NCBI GenBank assembly: GCA_944324235.1
Contig: CALUVN010000006.1
Span: forward strand, 1 to 53,565
DNA length: 53,565 nucleotides
Reading direction: 5' to 3'
Origin: Candidatus Gastranaerophilales bacterium
GTDB taxonomy: Bacteria > Cyanobacteriota > Vampirovibrionia > Gastranaerophilales > Gastranaerophilaceae
The notes under the pieces are model-generated. The model was given only the letters and a program-made list of their open reading frames with translations, made no database searches and was not told the DNA's origin. Positions 1,775 through 17,852 of the stretch are shown piece by piece. Each line of letters starts with the position of its first letter. Position 1 is the first letter of the stretch. A program made the position numbers and the translations under genes.

Positions 1775-4690
1775 ATGTTTTTCTATGCAGACTTACATAT
1801 TCATTCAAAGTATTCACGCGCAACAAGCAAAAGCTGCAACCTTGAAGAGTTAGCGCAGTGGGCACAGAAAAAAGGGCTGAGCGTAATTTCAACTGGAGAT
1901 TTTACGCATCCTGCGTGGTTTGCGGAAATAAACGAAAAACTTATACCTGCAGGAAACGGTGTTTTCAGACTCAAACCCGAAATCGAAAAACAAGTCTTAA
2001 AAGACGGCGGAAAACCTGTCTACTTTATACTTTCCGTTGAAATCTCCACAATTTACAAAAAAGGAGACAAAACAAGAAAAGTTCACCACGTATGTTTTGT
2101 CCCTGATATGAAGGCGGCAGGAAACTTCCGTAACAAATTAGGTGCAATAGGTAATATAAATTCCGACGGACGTCCTATTCTGGGGCTTGATTCTGAAAAC
2201 CTTCTGGAAACAGTGCTTGAATCAGGTGACGGCTCTTATATAATCCCAGCTCATATCTGGACTCCGTGGTTTTCGGTTCTCGGCTCAAAATCAGGTTTTG
2301 ATTCAATAGAAGAATGCTACGGAAGCCTTGCAGATAAAATTTTTGCGGTAGAAACAGGGCTTTCTTCTGACCCTGAAATGAACTGGAAAGTATCTAAACT
2401 GGATAAATTCCGTCTGGTTTCAAATTCCGATGCCCACTCTCCTTCCAAACTTGCACGCGAAGCAACTGTCTTTGACACAGACCCTGACTATTTCAGCATT
2501 ATGAACGCCCTCAAAACAGGCAAAGGTTACGCAGGCACAGTGGAATTTTTTCCGGAAGAAGGCAAATACCACGAAGACGGTCACAGAAAATGTAATGTCT
2601 GCCTTACACCGGAAGAAACAAAACAGCTCGGAGGGATTTGTCCTGTATGCGGAAAACCTCTGACAATAGGAGTTTCCTACAGAGTTCATGAACTCTCTGA
2701 CCGCCCGTTTAACTCAAACTTCAAACCGTCGACAGGCGGGAATGTTTACAGCCTTGTGCCGCTGCAGGAGATAATTTCCGAAATAATGCAGGTTGGAACA
2801 TCAAGCAAATCCGTTGTGACTGAATATGAAAGACTTATTCATAAACTGGGGCCGGAACTTGCAATATTACAGGATATTCCTGTTGAAGAAATTACAAAAG
2901 AATCAACGCTTTTAGGGGAAGGTATCTCCCGCCTGAGAGCAGGAAAAGTAATAAAACAAGCTGGCTACGACGGAGAATACGGGGTTATCAGACTGTTTGA
3001 AGACGGTGAACTCAACAAAAAGAAAACAACTGTTAATCTGAAACTTAACATAGATATTCCGCCTGCAAAAGAAGAGAATAAAAGCACAAAAACATGGAAT
3101 ATCCCGCAAGCTGTACACGAAATTGTGAAAGAAGAAACAAACAGGAAAAAAGGGCTTGATGAATATCAAAAAGCTGCCGTTGAAAATCCCAACAGCCAAA
3201 TACTCATAATAGCAGGCCCGGGGTCTGGCAAAACTACCGTTCTTACAAGACGGATTGCGCATTTGATAAATAACAATAACGTTTCGCCAAATAATTGCCT
3301 TGCCATTACCTTCACCCGCCGCGCTGCAGAAGAAATGCGGGAAAGATTATCCGCTCTTATTCCTCAAAAATCAGAGTTGATTAATATTCACACTTTCCAC
3401 TCGCTCTGTTTTTCAATCCTCAAAGAAAACCACGAAAAAGCTGCTCTGGACAAAAACTTTTCTGTTATCAGCGAACAGGAAAAATCTCTGTATAAAGAAA
3501 ATGAATTACCTGAAAACACTATCAGCTTTGATGATTTGATTACTCTTACCGTAAAACTTTTTGAGGAAAATCCGGAAATCGCAAAATCTTATCAGGAACG
3601 TTATAAATATCTCTCGGTCGATGAATATCAGGATATTGACGAAAATCAGTATAAATTAATACGGCTTTTAGCACCTGATAATGCAAATATTTGTGCAATC
3701 GGAGACCCTAATCAGGCTATCTACGGTTTTCGCGGAGGTAATTCAAAATTCTTCAATAATTTTAAAGAAGATTATAAAAATGTAGAAATTATCAACCTGA
3801 AAAATAATTACCGCTCGACAGAAAGTATCGTAAATGCTTCTAACCAGATGATTGACTGTTATAACACAGTTTCACAATACGTAAAAGGACATGAAAAAAT
3901 TACAATCCACACAGCTCCGACAGACAAAGCTGAAGCAGAATTTATCGTAAGTTCAATTGAAAATCTAATCGGCGGCCACAGCTTTTTCTCAATAGATTCA
4001 TCACGTAGTGAAGGCGAAACTGAGGATTATTCTTTTTCTGATTTTGCGGTGCTTTACAGAACCTCCTCACAGTTAAAGACAATTACGGAAGCTTTGCAGC
4101 GCTCGGGTATGCCGTTTGTAAAACTATCTGATGACATGCTATGTGATAAAAAATCAGTCCGAACCGTTCTAAAAAATCTTACATCCGATATTCCTGTCCT
4201 TGAACAGCTAAACAATCTGCCGGAAGAAATTTCGTCACAGATAGAAGATTATGCGATGAAATACCTGAAAAATCTTGCTGAAAAACATCCGCAAAAGAAT
4301 GACTTCATTCACGAGGTTTCCCTGATAAGAGAATCAGACACGCTGGATAAACGCGCTGACAGAATTGCTCTGATGACCCTTCACGCATCAAAAGGGCTGG
4401 AGTTCAGATGCGTTTTTGTAACAGGTCTTGAAAACGGCATACTGCCGCTTTACCGCGCGGAAACTAAAGAAGATATTGAAGAAGAAAGACGGCTTTTATA
4501 TGTCGGAATGACAAGAGCAAAACAACGACTATTCCTGAGCCGCGCAGAAAAAAGGTTTGTATGGGGAGAACAAAAATATCTTGAAATTTCACCGTTTCTC
4601 GCAAAAATAGAAAACGACCTTTTGACCCTTTCAAAATTTGAAAGAGAACGTCAGGAAAAAGAACGTTCAAGCCAGCTCAGTCTTTTCTAA
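1775..4690 (+). CDS. Endonuclease Q (PHP-type) fused to UvrD-family SF1 helicase, with C-terminal clamp-binding peptide
   Basis: A 971-residue fusion. Residues 1-400 match the EndoQ/TIGR00375 family: PHP metal ligands D6-H8-H10, a GDFTHP block near 42, SNSDAHSP near 217, the FFPEEGKYHEDGHRKC block, and a zinc knuckle C273/C276/C289/C292. EndoQ enzymes nick DNA 5' of deaminated bases and abasic sites. Residues 460-940 are a UvrD/PcrA-type helicase with Walker A GPGSGKT (481-487), DEYQD (616-620), GDPNQAIYGFRGG, LHASKGLEF near 870 and LLYVGMTRAKQRL. The helicase half is short, so 1B/2B-like insertions are probably reduced. The last five residues, QLSLF, match the bacterial beta-clamp-binding consensus QL[SD]LF. 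GGGGAG lies upstream of the ATG at a suitable distance. The gene converges with the endonuclease IV-like gene (2 bp gap), and dnaN lies just beyond. Inferred role: clamp-linked repair of deaminated or abasic DNA. Family assignment is firm; substrate is inferred. Confidence 0.9.
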   Translation: MFFYADLHIHSKYSRATSKSCNLEELAQWAQKKGLSVISTGDFTHPAWFAEINEKLIPAGNGVFRLKPEIEKQVLKDGGKPVYFILSVEISTIYKKGDKTRKVHHVCFVPDMKAAGNFRNKLGAIGNINSDGRPILGLDSENLLETVLESGDGSYIIPAHIWTPWFSVLGSKSGFDSIEECYGSLADKIFAVETGLSSDPEMNWKVSKLDKFRLVSNSDAHSPSKLAREATVFDTDPDYFSIMNALKTGKGYAGTVEFFPEEGKYHEDGHRKCNVCLTPEETKQLGGICPVCGKPLTIGVSYRVHELSDRPFNSNFKPSTGGNVYSLVPLQEIISEIMQVGTSSKSVVTEYERLIHKLGPELAILQDIPVEEITKESTLLGEGISRLRAGKVIKQAGYDGEYGVIRLFEDGELNKKKTTVNLKLNIDIPPAKEENKSTKTWNIPQAVHEIVKEETNRKKGLDEYQKAAVENPNSQILIIAGPGSGKTTVLTRRIAHLINNNNVSPNNCLAITFTRRAAEEMRERLSALIPQKSELINIHTFHSLCFSILKENHEKAALDKNFSVISEQEKSLYKENELPENTISFDDLITLTVKLFEENPEIAKSYQERYKYLSVDEYQDIDENQYKLIRLLAPDNANICAIGDPNQAIYGFRGGNSKFFNNFKEDYKNVEIINLKNNYRSTESIVNASNQMIDCYNTVSQYVKGHEKITIHTAPTDKAEAEFIVSSIENLIGGHSFFSIDSSRSEGETEDYSFSDFAVLYRTSSQLKTITEALQRSGMPFVKLSDDMLCDKKSVRTVLKNLTSDIPVLEQLNNLPEEISSQIEDYAMKYLKNLAEKHPQKNDFIHEVSLIRESDTLDKRADRIALMTLHASKGLEFRCVFVTGLENGILPLYRAETKEDIEEERRLLYVGMTRAKQRLFLSRAEKRFVWGEQKYLEISPFLAKIENDLLTLSKFERERQEKERSSQLSLF

Positions 4691-5553: not shown

Positions 5554-6675
5554 TTATCTGATTTGAACCGGCATAATCAGGCAGATAAAATCGTCTTCGC
5601 TGTTCGGTTTAAACACTGTTGCCGACAGACTTGTATTCAAACCTACTTTTACTTCATCACTTTCTATATTTTTCAAAACGTCAAGAATAAATTTATAATT
5701 AAAAGCGATAGTGATAGGTTCTGCCGTGTAATCTATATCGATATGTTCTTCTGATTTACCTGCATCAGGAGTATCTGCAGCAAGTGACAGAACATTATCG
5801 GCAAAGTCAAATTTAACGATATTTGTCTTTTCGTTAACCATAATCGCAACTCTTTCGAGAGCGGAGATGAATTTTGAAACATTAACAAGAGCTTCTTTCG
5901 GACTTTCGTTTGGTATTAACTGGTTGTATTTAGGGAATTGACCTTCCAGAAGTCTTGAGATTGTTGTTGTTTTTTCTGTTTTGAAAATAATTTTAGATTT
6001 TTCAATATAAATTCTGACAGATTCATCTTCTATGAAAGCTGCCATTTTAATAAATTCGTTAAGAGTTTTTGACGGAATAATCAACTGGTGAGCACAGCCG
6101 TCTTTGTTTACAATTTTTTCTCTGACGCGAGCAAGTCTGTTACCGTCGGTTGAAGCTATTTCCAGAATATCATCATGAATATCGCAGACAATACCTGACA
6201 ATAAATTACTTGTTTCGTAGCCTGCTGCAGCAAAACCAGCCTGTTTTACGGCTTTAGTCAAAGGTTTTACGGCTATTTCAAAACTGTTTTCTTCGTGAAG
6301 TTCAACGTTTGCTATTTCAGGTGGAAATTCGGATGCTGCGATACCGATTATATCAAATGAAGAATTTTGAGCTTTGATATTAACGACGGTTTCGCCTTCC
6401 TGCATTGAAAAAGTTATTAATTCATTACCTGTTTTGGAAACAATTTCGTTCAGAGTTTTTGAAGGAAGAGTAATTTTGCCCTGTTCTTCTATCTGGGCGA
6501 AAACTATTGCGGTTACTGTATAATCCAAATCTGTTGCGATAAGTTTTATAGCGGAATTTTCCATAGTTTCTATATAAATATTCAAAAGAACCGGCTGCAA
6601 TGCTTTCATGCTTGTTGCACGTTCTACAATTTTAATCCCGTTATACAAATCCTCTTTTTTAACAACAAATTTCAT
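5554..6675 (-). CDS. dnaN: DNA polymerase III beta subunit (sliding clamp)
   Basis: A 373-residue protein of normal clamp length. It starts MKFVVKKEDLYNGIKIVERATS and ends CLIMPVQIR, the usual DnaN C-terminus (P-[MV]-R-like). Three repeated clamp domains can be followed, with LPSKTLNEIV and IPSKTLNEFIK as the equivalent helices of domains 1 and 2. The protein forms the dimeric ring that tethers polymerase III and carries repair partners through their QL[SD]LF-type peptides. The minus strand has AGGGAG close before the ATG and a TATAAT further upstream. No dnaA is adjacent; instead the gene lies about 1.2 kb from a probable oriC and is transcribed away from it, so it runs with the replication fork. 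Confidence 0.96.
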   Translation of the reverse strand: MKFVVKKEDLYNGIKIVERATSMKALQPVLLNIYIETMENSAIKLIATDLDYTVTAIVFAQIEEQGKITLPSKTLNEIVSKTGNELITFSMQEGETVVNIKAQNSSFDIIGIAASEFPPEIANVELHEENSFEIAVKPLTKAVKQAGFAAAGYETSNLLSGIVCDIHDDILEIASTDGNRLARVREKIVNKDGCAHQLIIPSKTLNEFIKMAAFIEDESVRIYIEKSKIIFKTEKTTTISRLLEGQFPKYNQLIPNESPKEALVNVSKFISALERVAIMVNEKTNIVKFDFADNVLSLAADTPDAGKSEEHIDIDYTAEPITIAFNYKFILDVLKNIESDEVKVGLNTSLSATVFKPNSEDDFICLIMPVQIR

Positions 6676-7243: not shown

Positions 7244-7808
7244 CACGGAGACTCGACAAAAAGCCTGCGGCTTAGTAGTCTCGTTCCGTTCGCTATCCGG
7301 ACTTACTTCGTGTCGTCCGTCCGCAAATCCGCCTCCTACTTAGGAGAGGGTATTCAAGTTTATCCAAAAGCCGCCTTGTAAAAGATGTTTAAAGTTTTTT
7401 TGAATATCTAATACAGGCGACTGCTTCAATATTGAAGAGTAGTATTGATGCAAACTTATGTTTACCCCCTCACCTTAGCCCCCTCCCTCAATCCCTCCCC
7501 TCAAGGGGGAGGGAAGTGTTGTTAAGCGCTTACGGTTTATACAAAAGCCGCCTTGTAAAAGATGTTTAAAGTTTTTTGAATATCTAATACAGGCGACTTC
7601 TCAGTCTGTGGAAATAGTATTGATGCAAACGTAACGTTTGCCCCCTCACAGAGGTCAATCTGACGGGGAGAGGGAACTACGAACTACGGTTTATACAAAA
7701 GCCGACGGCTAAAAGTCTTTGAAAGTTTTTTTTTGAGTATCTTTGTGCGTAGCACTGTAAAGGACTATTTACTCTTCACCATTCACCATTCACCATTCAC
7801 CATTCACT
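7244..7808 (+). repeat. Composite dispersed repeat, copy 1
   Basis: A modular non-coding element. Order: a 90-bp module starting CACGGAGACTCGAC; a CCTACTTAGGAG palindrome; two direct copies of a unit with AAAAGCCGCCTTGTAAAAG and TTGATGCAAAC (about 7366-7475 and 7542-7650); a shorter third unit (about 7685-7745); and TTCACCA heptamers. The same modules in the same order occur inverted at 53201-53565. The terminal 87-bp module differs at about one position. No transposase, terminal target duplication or tRNA is evident, so it is better described as a dispersed intergenic repeat than an insertion sequence. Confidence 0.8.
7775..7807 (+). repeat. Tandem heptamer TTCACCA, 4.7 units
   Basis: Four exact TTCACCA units plus TTCAC, followed by TTTTCAC variants. 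Degenerate relatives (GTGAATGGTGAAC) end the inverted copy at 53201-53220, and others occur near 6781 and 6970, so the heptamers mark one edge of the repeat family. Confidence 0.85.
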
Positions 7809-7854: not shown

Positions 7855-8101
7855 TTTTCTACAGCTTTTTATTTATTAATTAATATATAAATAATAATAT
7901 ATATAAATATAATAGTAATAATAAGCTCCTATTATTTGTAGAAAACTATTGGAAAGTTTGACCGGCGGCGGGTTTTCATTGTAGAAAATTCTGTAGAAAA
8001 CTTTTGACATCTTTTGTAGAAAACTCTTTTATTTTATAAATAATAAAAAATACTGTAGAAAACCTTAAAGTTTTCTACAGTATTCTACAAAGTTTTCTAC
8101 A
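7855..8101. other. oriC: Probable chromosomal replication origin (oriC): DnaA-box cluster with AT-rich unwinding region
   Basis: Exact 9-mers TTTTCTACA lie at 7855-7863 (+), 7937-7945 (-), 7980-7988 (-), 7992-8000 (-), 8015-8023 (-), 8054-8062 (-), 8071-8079 (+) and 8093-8101 (+). A one-mismatch copy, TATTCTACA, is at 8081-8089 (+). All exact copies but one are preceded by G (GTTTTCTACA). The 9-mer differs by one base from TTTTCCACA, the box form reported for cyanobacteria, and fits the DnaA consensus apart from T at position 6. An almost purely A/T tract (7864-7936) could be the duplex-unwinding element. On the minus strand, next to the 7937 box, ATT/ACT triplets resemble DnaA-trios. Position upstream of dnaN agrees with cyanobacterial origins. 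The origin call is inference; the box cluster is directly visible. Confidence 0.8.
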
Positions 8102-8107
8102 ATAATT

Positions 8108-9331
8108 TTAGAAAGATGCTACTGATTTACCTGCAGCCATTTCTTCTAAAATTTCAACGGCTTTTTTCAACTGAACATCGTCTTTGTTTTTAACGTTTTC
8201 TTCTGTCAGTTCAACAACAACATCAGGAGTTATTCCTTTTTTGTTAATGTCAGTGCCGTTTGGTGTCAGGTATTTTTGTATTGTAATATTAATACCCGCG
8301 TCATACGGAAGTTTGTTAACCTCCTGTACAAGACCTTTACCGAAAGATTGCTCTCCGACAATTACTGCTCTGCCGTTATCTTTCATAGCTCCAGAGAAAA
8401 TTTCGCTGGCTGATGCCGAACCTTTGTTTATTAATACTACAAGAGGTTTGTTTGTCATTACGCCGCGATTTGCTTTCTGGGTTTCTTTGTATCCGTCACG
8501 GTCTACAGTGCTGACGATAACTTTTCCGTCCAAAAACATGTCAGATATATATATTGCATTTGTCAAAAGTCCGCCAGGATTTGAACGAAGGTCTACGATG
8601 AATCCTTTTTTATTCTTGTTTGCGTTAAGAATTTGTGCAAATTCGTTTGCAGCATTTCTGCTGATGAATGAACTTAATCTTATGTATGCAATATCGTCAG
8701 GAATTTTTGTTTCTGCAGGTACTTTTTGTGATATGGATTTAATTTCAATCTCTGCACGTGTGATAGTGTAAAGTTTATTAGGCGTTACGTCTTTACGTTT
8801 AATCAGGAGTTTAACCTGAGTACCTTCTTTACCTCTGATTTTATCTGCAGCTTTGTCAACGGTGATACCTTTTGTACTAACGCCGTCGATTTCAAGAATT
8901 TCATCATCTGCAAGAAGTCCAGCTTTTTCTGCCGGAGTATCTTCTATCGGCGCAATTACCATTAACTTTCCGTCTTTTACTCCGATTTGAATACCGATAC
9001 CTTTCAGTGAACCTTTTATTGAACTTGTTTCTTCTGCAAATTCTTTAGGGTCAAGGAATTTTGTATAAGGATCATTCAAACTTGCTATCATTGTGTTAAT
9101 AGCAACGTAAGCATCTTCGTTTGTCTGTATTTTGCTGTCATATTTGTGTCTCCATTTAGACCAGTCCTGAGAGTTGTTGGTCTGGTCTACAAATTTTGAA
9201 TTAACCAGACGCCATACATTGTCATACAAATCTACAGGTGAATATGCAAATACGTTATTTTTTACTATCCAGCCGAATACAAGTACGAATGCACCCATTA
9301 AAATTGCGCTTTTTTTCATAATGTTTCTCAT
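8108..9331 (-). CDS. ctpA: C-terminal processing protease, S41 family with PDZ domain
   Basis: A 407-residue envelope protease. Residues 6-28 form a signal peptide or anchor, a PDZ domain covers about 105-190 (GIGIQIGVKDGKLMV...PAEKAG), and the S41 catalytic domain follows. The Ser-Lys dyad is visible: Ser307 in GSASASE and Lys332 in QSFGKG, 25 residues apart as in cyanobacterial CtpA. DLRSNPGG is the family core strand. It acts outside the inner membrane, trimming or degrading proteins from their C-termini. The minus-strand leader carries GGAGGG about 11 nt before the first ATG; a second in-frame ATG at codon 5 is possible. Its stop lies only a few bases from the last DnaA-like box, and its direction opposes the fork expected from the origin. 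Confidence 0.93.
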   Translation of the reverse strand: MRNIMKKSAILMGAFVLVFGWIVKNNVFAYSPVDLYDNVWRLVNSKFVDQTNNSQDWSKWRHKYDSKIQTNEDAYVAINTMIASLNDPYTKFLDPKEFAEETSSIKGSLKGIGIQIGVKDGKLMVIAPIEDTPAEKAGLLADDEILEIDGVSTKGITVDKAADKIRGKEGTQVKLLIKRKDVTPNKLYTITRAEIEIKSISQKVPAETKIPDDIAYIRLSSFISRNAANEFAQILNANKNKKGFIVDLRSNPGGLLTNAIYISDMFLDGKVIVSTVDRDGYKETQKANRGVMTNKPLVVLINKGSASASEIFSGAMKDNGRAVIVGEQSFGKGLVQEVNKLPYDAGINITIQKYLTPNGTDINKKGITPDVVVELTEENVKNKDDVQLKKAVEILEEMAAGKSVASF

Positions 9332-15872: not shown

Positions 15873-17852
15873 ATGTTCAAAATAGGAAGAGCAATAAAGT
15901 CTTATATAAGAACCAATTCCGGTATAGCGGAAAGGAATGCTTTTATTGATAAGGTGTTCCGGCTTTTGTGGGAAACTTTATCATTATTTAATAAAAAAAC
16001 AATGAAGTTATATATGACACTTCTTGTCAAACCTGATATAATCAATAATTCCGGCGGTGAATTTGTGAAAAGACTTTGCCTGTTTGCAGGTTTTGATAAA
16101 AATAATATTATCCACGATTACGTAATTTATTACATAAAAAAACTTTCTGAATTTGCGGAAATTCATTATATTGCAGATTGTAATATGCCGGAGGCTGAAC
16201 TGGCAAAACTTACGCCCTATGTTAAATCCGCAAGAGCGTACAGGCATGATAAATATGATTTTGGTTCATGGCAGGAGCTTATACAGATATTGGGCTGGGA
16301 GTATCTGGAACAGTTTGATGAGATTATTTTTGCCAATGATTCGTGCTTTGCTCCTGTTTTCCCTTTCAAGGCAATGTTTGAAAAAATGGAAAAACAGAAT
16401 CTTGATTTCTGGGGTAATACATTAAACAGTGATATTCATAGACACATTCAGAGTTATTTTCTTGTTTTTAGCAATAAAGTTATTCGGGATAATATTTTTA
16501 GAACTTTTATCGAGAATATCAGACACGAAGATGAAAGAACAAATGTTATCATAAAATACGAAATTAGACTTACAGGTTTATTAGAAAATCATGGATATAA
16601 ATACGGAGTTTTTGTCGGCAACGATGTTCTTGCAATCCACGAATATCAGCCTTATTACAAATTATTCCTGCAAAAATCCCCGTTTTTTAAGATTAAATGG
16701 TTTACGCACATCTGGGTACAGTTCAGGGCATCGTATGCAGCATTAATCCTGTTAAAATTGTGCGGGTATCCTGTTGAATACATTGTTGATTATATACACA
16801 AAACATACGGCAGCATTTATTTATTAAAAAATTTTGTAAAATGCATTAGAAATGTATTCTGGCGTGAACCTAAAAGAAAGTTTCGCGAAAAATTTTTCAA
16901 AAAATTCGACAATACTGTTTTAATAACAGGCGGGGCGGGATTTATCGGTTCATCACTTGCGGACGCTCTGCTGAAGGATGGATGTAAAGTCGTAGTGGTT
17001 GATAATTTTGATGATTTTTATCCGCGGGACTTGAAGCGTGATAATATCAAAAAAAATCTTAAAAACAAACGCTATAAATTATACGAAACTGATATCAAAA
17101 ACCATGAAGATATAGAGAAAATTTTTGAGGAAAATAAAATAGATATAGTCTATCATCTGGCAGCAAAAGTTAATGACAGAAAATCTTTTGAAAATCCCGA
17201 TGCATATTTTGAAACAAACGTAGCAGGTACGGAAAATATTCTCAAATGCTGTGTAAAACATAAAGTGCAAAAATTTATAGCGGCCTCCTCAAGTTCTGTT
17301 TACGGAGTTGCAGCAGCTGAGAAGTTTCGGGAGGATATGGCTGACTTAAAGCCGATTTCTCCATACGCGGAATCCAAACTGCAAATGGAAAAACTAATAC
17401 AGGAATATGCAGAGAAATACGGACTTAAAAGTCTTGTAATCAGACCGTTTACAGTATACGGCCCGCGTCAGCGTCCTGATTTGGCAATTTGTAAATTTGT
17501 CAGAAAAATTAATGCAGGCGAGCCCATAGATGTTTACGGAGACGGAACAAGCTCACGCGATTATACTTACATTGATGATATGGTATTAGGTCTTATAAAG
17601 TCTTTTATGATTGATACAGGCTTGTTTAATATAATAAATATCGGGAGTTCCGAACCTGTTACACTGCAATGTTTGATTAACATAATTGAGCAATGCCTGA
17701 ATAAAAAAGCTGAAATAAACAGACTTCCAAATCAAAAAGGCGATGTTCCGCGTACAGACGCTGATATTCAAAAAGCAATAAAGCTTATAAAATACAAACC
17801 GAAAACCAGTTTCAAACAGGGAATAGAAAAATTTATAGAATATATGTTATAA
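15873..17852 (+). CDS. Fusion: RgpF-like (rhamnan synthesis F) glycosyltransferase + NAD-dependent sugar epimerase
   Basis: 659 residues in two parts. About 60-320 match the rhamnan synthesis protein F family, with KRLCLFAGFDKNN, YDFGSWQELIQ, FDEIIFANDSCFAP and a C-terminal HEYQP block. About 347-659 is an extended SDR epimerase/dehydratase: dinucleotide-binding TGGAGFIGSSLADAL, SSSSVYG, the catalytic YAESK (Tyr and Lys) and RPFTVYGPRQRPD, resembling UDP-glucuronate/galactose 4-epimerases. The two activities are normally separate polypeptides in surface polysaccharide clusters. Here they would couple nucleotide-sugar supply to transfer. The frame is continuous across the junction (about 16905-16925). 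The Shine-Dalgarno sequence is poorly placed (AAAGGA about 16 nt before ATG). Confidence 0.85.
   Translation: MFKIGRAIKSYIRTNSGIAERNAFIDKVFRLLWETLSLFNKKTMKLYMTLLVKPDIINNSGGEFVKRLCLFAGFDKNNIIHDYVIYYIKKLSEFAEIHYIADCNMPEAELAKLTPYVKSARAYRHDKYDFGSWQELIQILGWEYLEQFDEIIFANDSCFAPVFPFKAMFEKMEKQNLDFWGNTLNSDIHRHIQSYFLVFSNKVIRDNIFRTFIENIRHEDERTNVIIKYEIRLTGLLENHGYKYGVFVGNDVLAIHEYQPYYKLFLQKSPFFKIKWFTHIWVQFRASYAALILLKLCGYPVEYIVDYIHKTYGSIYLLKNFVKCIRNVFWREPKRKFREKFFKKFDNTVLITGGAGFIGSSLADALLKDGCKVVVVDNFDDFYPRDLKRDNIKKNLKNKRYKLYETDIKNHEDIEKIFEENKIDIVYHLAAKVNDRKSFENPDAYFETNVAGTENILKCCVKHKVQKFIAASSSSVYGVAAAEKFREDMADLKPISPYAESKLQMEKLIQEYAEKYGLKSLVIRPFTVYGPRQRPDLAICKFVRKINAGEPIDVYGDGTSSRDYTYIDDMVLGLIKSFMIDTGLFNIINIGSSEPVTLQCLINIIEQCLNKKAEINRLPNQKGDVPRTDADIQKAIKLIKYKPKTSFKQGIEKFIEYML

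Follow-up and report, generated by a model that had tools for sequence, protein, structure and literature searches.

The region at positions 7855-8101 of the analyzed stretch of DNA (53,565 nucleotides, hereafter the window) is almost certainly the chromosomal replication origin (oriC) of this Gastranaerophilales bacterium. The data as a whole are best explained, with good confidence, by an oriC whose DnaA box is a derived, class-wide form that arose together with a replacement of Asp433 in DnaA (E. coli numbering is used for this residue throughout). In the simplest account, an ordinary DnaA-dependent origin underwent a single joint change of box and initiator close to the root of the class. 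The anatomy of the locus, its conservation, the GC-skew minimum of a relative, and the coincidence of residue and box letter were established by computation; from these we infer that DnaA binds the boxes and that the residue determines the letter.

The cluster consists of eight exact copies of the 9-mer TTTTCTACA and one variant, TATTCTACA, exactly as a sequence-only reading of the locus had claimed. The exact boxes are located at 7855-7863 (+), 7937-7945 (−), 7980-7988 (−), 7992-8000 (−), 8015-8023 (−), 8054-8062 (−), 8071-8079 (+), and 8093-8101 (+), and the variant at 8081-8089 (+). The first of these lies on the far, dnaN-proximal side of an A/T tract and was found in the same place in two congeners (G002 and G003). 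The boxes at 8054-8062 and 8071-8079 are the two arms of a conserved divergent pair (17-bp offset); divergent pairs 16-20 bp apart were detected in many genomes of the class and in cyanobacterial clusters. All nine boxes carry T at position 6, and none displays the C found there in the canonical TTWTNCACA box. DnaA-box-like 9-mers are clustered in an intergenic region, as expected of an oriC.

Within the window, TTTTCTACA occurred 12 times (1.2 expected), a number reached in none of 100 shuffles. In simulations of the local kilobase (300 order-1 runs), no 9-mer exceeded three copies per 250 bp, compared with the eight observed. Across all 1.94 Mb of the genome (80 contigs), 80 copies were counted, 40 per strand, against 44 per strand for the reversed pattern, taken as a control. 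Because its copy number is no higher than that of the control, the word as such shows no enrichment, and what is unusual is only the way it clusters here. The genome-wide search for further TTTTCTACA clusters, which the earlier reading had proposed as a check, returned 7855-8101 as the sole cluster, with none around dnaA. Words matching TTWTNCACA numbered 322 in the same genome, and no cluster of them was detected among the places listed (approximately 100 of the 322).

A nearly pure A/T tract and triplets resembling DnaA-trios beside the 7937-7945 box had also been pointed out, and both were recovered. The tract is a 49-bp run of A and T only (7866-7914), the longest in the window and, lying adjacent to the boxes, a probable DNA unwinding element. 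The trios number five (5′-TAATAGTAATAATAA-3′ at 7910-7924, + strand, i.e. 3′-[G/A]AT-5′ repeats). Outward from the 7937-7945 box, a 12-bp spacer (7925-7936) is followed by the five trios (TTATTATTACTATTA) and then by the A/T-only run. The published rule for the basal unwinding system calls for a box, at least three trios, and between them a spacer whose length peaks at 10-13 bp (PMC8287927). The locus displays this arrangement (three or more trios, 0-16 bp away from a box), although the box is the class variant and not TTWTNCACA; the box at 7937-7945 is the putative loading box. As a mechanism, domain IV of DnaA would bind the TTTTCTACA boxes, and a DnaA filament would grow from the 7937-7945 box over the 12-bp spacer onto the trio strand at 7910-7924 and melt the neighboring A/T tract.

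Among named relatives with a trio-anchored box, this box was TTTTCTACA in 63 of 66 cases, and the spacer measured 12 bp, likewise in 63 of 66. Fully matching trio-anchored boxes in other classes of the phylum read TTTTCCACA or TTATCCACA. Since the anchor search scored seven box letters, with positions 5 and 6 excluded, the letters found at these two positions are unbiased by the method. Relatives also keep the cluster near dnaN: in 67 of the 73 named loci that could be tested (i.e. those with enough upstream sequence, mostly Gastranaerophilales), five or more TTWTNNACA boxes lay in a 400-bp stretch just upstream of the gene, and the cluster usually started approximately 350 bp from it. In genomes of this order, clusters of TTTTCTACA or a near variant lay 0.1-0.5 kb upstream of dnaN. 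Unbiased 9-mer discovery upstream of dnaN in same-order relatives most often returned TTTTCTACA, with TTTTGAACA or other variants in several genera; TTTTCCACA was returned in no same-order relative, and the boxes at the locus described here are not the TTTTCCACA boxes of cyanobacterial-type origins either.

Further box types comprise (i) TTWTCAACA/TTTTGAACA in family f9; (ii) TTWTCTACA in family f8; and (iii) perhaps TTWCTTACA in family f12. Other classes of the phylum retain TTWTCCACA boxes. For the families in which a cluster was found, the sequences leave very little doubt that the box with T or A at position 6 is class-wide, and it would derive from an ancestral TTWTCCACA by a change of C to T or A at that position. 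In families f11 and f14, no recognizable cluster was detected near dnaN, and motif discovery there gave no box.

In f11 genomes (L354, L356-L359), Gly433-Asn434 replaces Asp-His in DnaA, and no box cluster was recognized near dnaN. The f12 genomes (L181, L184, L185, L190-L193) have Thr433, and their trio-side box resembles TTWCTTACA, with position 4 altered too. One genome of the class, G058 (90% complete), gave a match neither for DnaA nor for DnaN; as dnaA and dnaN are neighbors in its family, this possibly reflects an assembly gap. Another genome encodes a second, divergent DnaN-like protein (G013:C3:35045-36130) in addition to the regular one.

DnaA is present in the genome of the window (contig C11), where its helix-turn-helix domain was recognized (PF08299) and modeled with good confidence. 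In E. coli, the box is read at its 3′ side (TnCACA) by the helix comprising residues 434-451 and at its 5′ side by Arg399 (PMC5742627), with base-specific contacts made by residues 432-435 and 438-439 (PMC5043019). The equivalent of Asp433 in this genome is Lys422, at the start of the recognition helix. Outside the class, Asp occupied position 433 in all 32 proteins from the phylum; within the class, none of 96 proteins had it, the residue there being Lys (68), Thr (14), Gly (5), Arg (4), Gln (3), or Asn (2). The motif at this site is mostly KKH in the family of the window (f1), with a turn one residue shorter, and mostly GGRKH in families f2-f7 of the same order. When the 435 alignable DnaA positions were ranked between groups set by residue 433, which are identical to class membership, position 433 was the best discriminator, with no overlap between groups; Arg399 and His434 were essentially unchanged. 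The second-best discriminator, position 199, lies outside domain IV and is Phe, Ala, or Tyr elsewhere, but Lys or Arg in the class.

The box letter followed the same division. Position 6 was C in 76 of 80 boxes (95%) from 13 genomes with Asp433, compared with 12 of 351 (3%) from 49 genomes without it. The sequence-only reading had anticipated either a DnaA of shifted specificity or a lineage-specific box; both ideas gain support, in that the box is class-wide and coincides with the loss of Asp433. On the DnaA tree (a quick method with most of domain IV left out; support 89), one change sufficed for each trait, residue 433 and box letter. The class being one clade in which each trait changed once, the match of residue and letter amounts to one event, an unreplicated correlation, and many further changes fell on the same branch.

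On the sequence comparison, we nevertheless favor, with some reserve, a causal tie of box position 6 to residue 433. The position-6 change would have accompanied the replacement of Asp433 (by Lys422 here). Chemically, Asp may act as a hydrogen-bond acceptor for an amino group such as that of C, and Lys or Arg as a donor to a group such as O4 of T. In the contacts published so far, Asp433 faces box position 7, which adjoins the changed letter (PMC8235120), so the route from residue to letter may be indirect. It seems fairly likely that the code changed at the base of the class, through loss of Asp433 and a C-to-T/A change at position 6, and subsequently diversified into a natural series of co-evolved pairs. 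With similar likelihood, the diversified set would include Lys, Arg, Thr, Gln, Gly, and Asn on the protein side and CT, GA, AT, CA, and TTWCTTACA-like (f12) boxes on the DNA side. The additional variety of residues at 433 and of box types suggests that evolution of the pair continues. Boxes differ between the two genomes with Asn433: L130 (G029) has a trio-proximal TTTTGCACA (C6) and L100 (G005) has TTATAAACA (A6). As these two disagree, no simple one-residue code is established. Residue 423 was considered in relation to the box subtype (CT versus GA), GA being rare with Glu423 and more common with Pro423; with only four to six independent pairs, the sign test was uninformative, and we make no claim on this residue.

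The same observations could be read differently: the locus would be oriC, but the box letter would have drifted in AT-rich genomes, DnaA tolerating both letters and the Asp433 change being incidental. We consider this unlikely, yet worth weighing. The change from C to T or A is of the kind that drift in AT-rich genomes would produce, the several boxes of an origin are mixed, and both changes happened once, on one branch. However, the shift affected position 6 alone, and the second C of the box (position 8) was retained in the trio-anchored boxes. Moreover, C6 is as rare as stated above although the genome is rich in TTWTNCACA words. We retain the concerted change of box and initiator as the better reading.

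Concerning gene context, the earlier statement that the cluster lies upstream of dnaN, with dnaA elsewhere, was confirmed. The gene at 5554-6675 (−) is dnaN, encoding the DNA polymerase III beta clamp (TIGR00663 over cut-off; 94-96% identical to its closest named relatives), a conserved neighbor of the origin, which places the cluster approximately 1.2-1.4 kb upstream of it. The position is thus dnaN-adjacent, as in cyanobacterial-type origins, though about 1.2 kb off in the window. The extra DNA between cluster and gene consists at least partly of a high-copy interspersed repeat. Three copies of this repeat of approximately 110-119 bp lie between oriC and dnaN (7359-7473, 7536-7654, and 7690-7731); its roughly 50 matches in the genome show 75-100% identity and often lie in tandem and at contig ends. 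On its other side, the cluster directly follows the 3′ end of an S41 protease gene of Ctp type (8108-9331, −), which is not a conserved neighbor across relatives. In three genomes (G004, G010, and G027), the box cluster and dnaN are approximately 5 kb apart, which shows the cluster to be separable from this gene and not part of its promoter.

Two other genes of the window have unusual domain compositions. An apparent fusion protein of 971 aa is encoded at 1775-4690 (+), with residues 5-405 matching TIGR00375 and residues ~460-925 a UvrD/PcrA-type helicase. A single protein encoded at 15873-17852 (+) combines RgpF (rhamnan synthesis) and NAD-dependent epimerase domains.

As the genome is split into 80 contigs, GC skew was computed for the window only, where it reached its local minimum at about 10-11 kb, offset by 2-3 kb from the cluster. 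A more complete profile was obtained for G046, a genome of the same order with an 852-kb contig (47% sampled). Here, cumulative skew dropped steadily to 235 kb and rose after its minimum, which on the fine scale fell into the bin at 262-263 kb; the start of dnaN lies at 263,115, with the boxes just upstream. In G106, of the same family, skew was weaker and changed sign near the cluster at 314 kb, with a slightly lower dip at 464-484 kb.

Two explanations that deny the locus the role of origin are both very improbable. Sites such as E. coli datA and DARS also bear box clusters, and the skew of this genome, spread over 80 contigs, is not computable, so the cluster might be a DnaA titration or control site with the true origin elsewhere; however, no second TTTTCTACA cluster exists in the genome, around dnaA or anywhere else, trios and an A/T unwinding tract are present, and the skew minimum of G046 falls at the homologous cluster. 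An intergenic site beside dnaN with 9-mers repeated on both strands could also consist of operators for a regulator of dnaN or of the protease gene, but the distance from dnaN in some relatives, the lack of a conserved protease neighbor, trios at a fixed 12-bp spacing, the skew minimum, and an architecture matching cyanobacterial origins all argue against this.

To our knowledge, DnaA-box recognition is treated as nearly universal, with TTWTNCACA read by Asp433-His434 of DnaA. While the origin described here is ordinary in kind, the class-wide altered pair of box and DnaA appears to be undescribed. In the open-access literature, we found nothing relevant linking Gastranaerophilales to oriC; judged by title and abstract, no report there linked Vampirovibrionia to DnaA boxes or treated TTTTCTACA alongside DnaA as a matter of replication origins. 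If the proposed reading is true, a class that lost Asp433 and altered the matching box would illustrate how a protein-DNA code on which cells depend is recoded across many sites simultaneously. The residue-to-base prediction is directly testable, for example by comparing TTATCTACA and TTATCCACA with E. coli DnaA Asp433Lys. In practice, origin finders relying on canonical boxes may overlook or wrongly score these common gut bacteria, which are uncultured, non-photosynthetic relatives of cyanobacteria.

The locus shares features with several known systems. Cyanobacterial origins with TTTTCCACA boxes (Synechococcus, Anabaena, Cyanothece; PMC4674748) are likewise dnaN-adjacent, often with dnaA elsewhere, and have 9-mers clustered on both strands; their divergent pair approximately 18-19 bp apart and their box approximately 13 bp from CTA/TTA trios resemble the layout found here. 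They differ in box position 6 (C versus T/A here) and in DnaA residue 433 (Asp versus Lys). With the basal unwinding system of Bacillus subtilis and most bacteria (PMC8287927), the locus shares a box, a spacer of about 10-13 bp, trios, and an A/T-rich region, but the local box is not TTWTNCACA. A lineage-specific change of DnaA-box preference is also known from Epsilonproteobacteria (PMC5043019); in that group, the box always has T at position 5 and the 433-434 dyad is kept, whereas here position 6 changed and Asp433 was lost. Finally, the oriC of Thermotoga maritima also combines a divergent box, the 12-mer AAACCTACCACC, with divergent DnaA contact residues (PMC7561715), although that box differs from the one in the window in both length and sequence.
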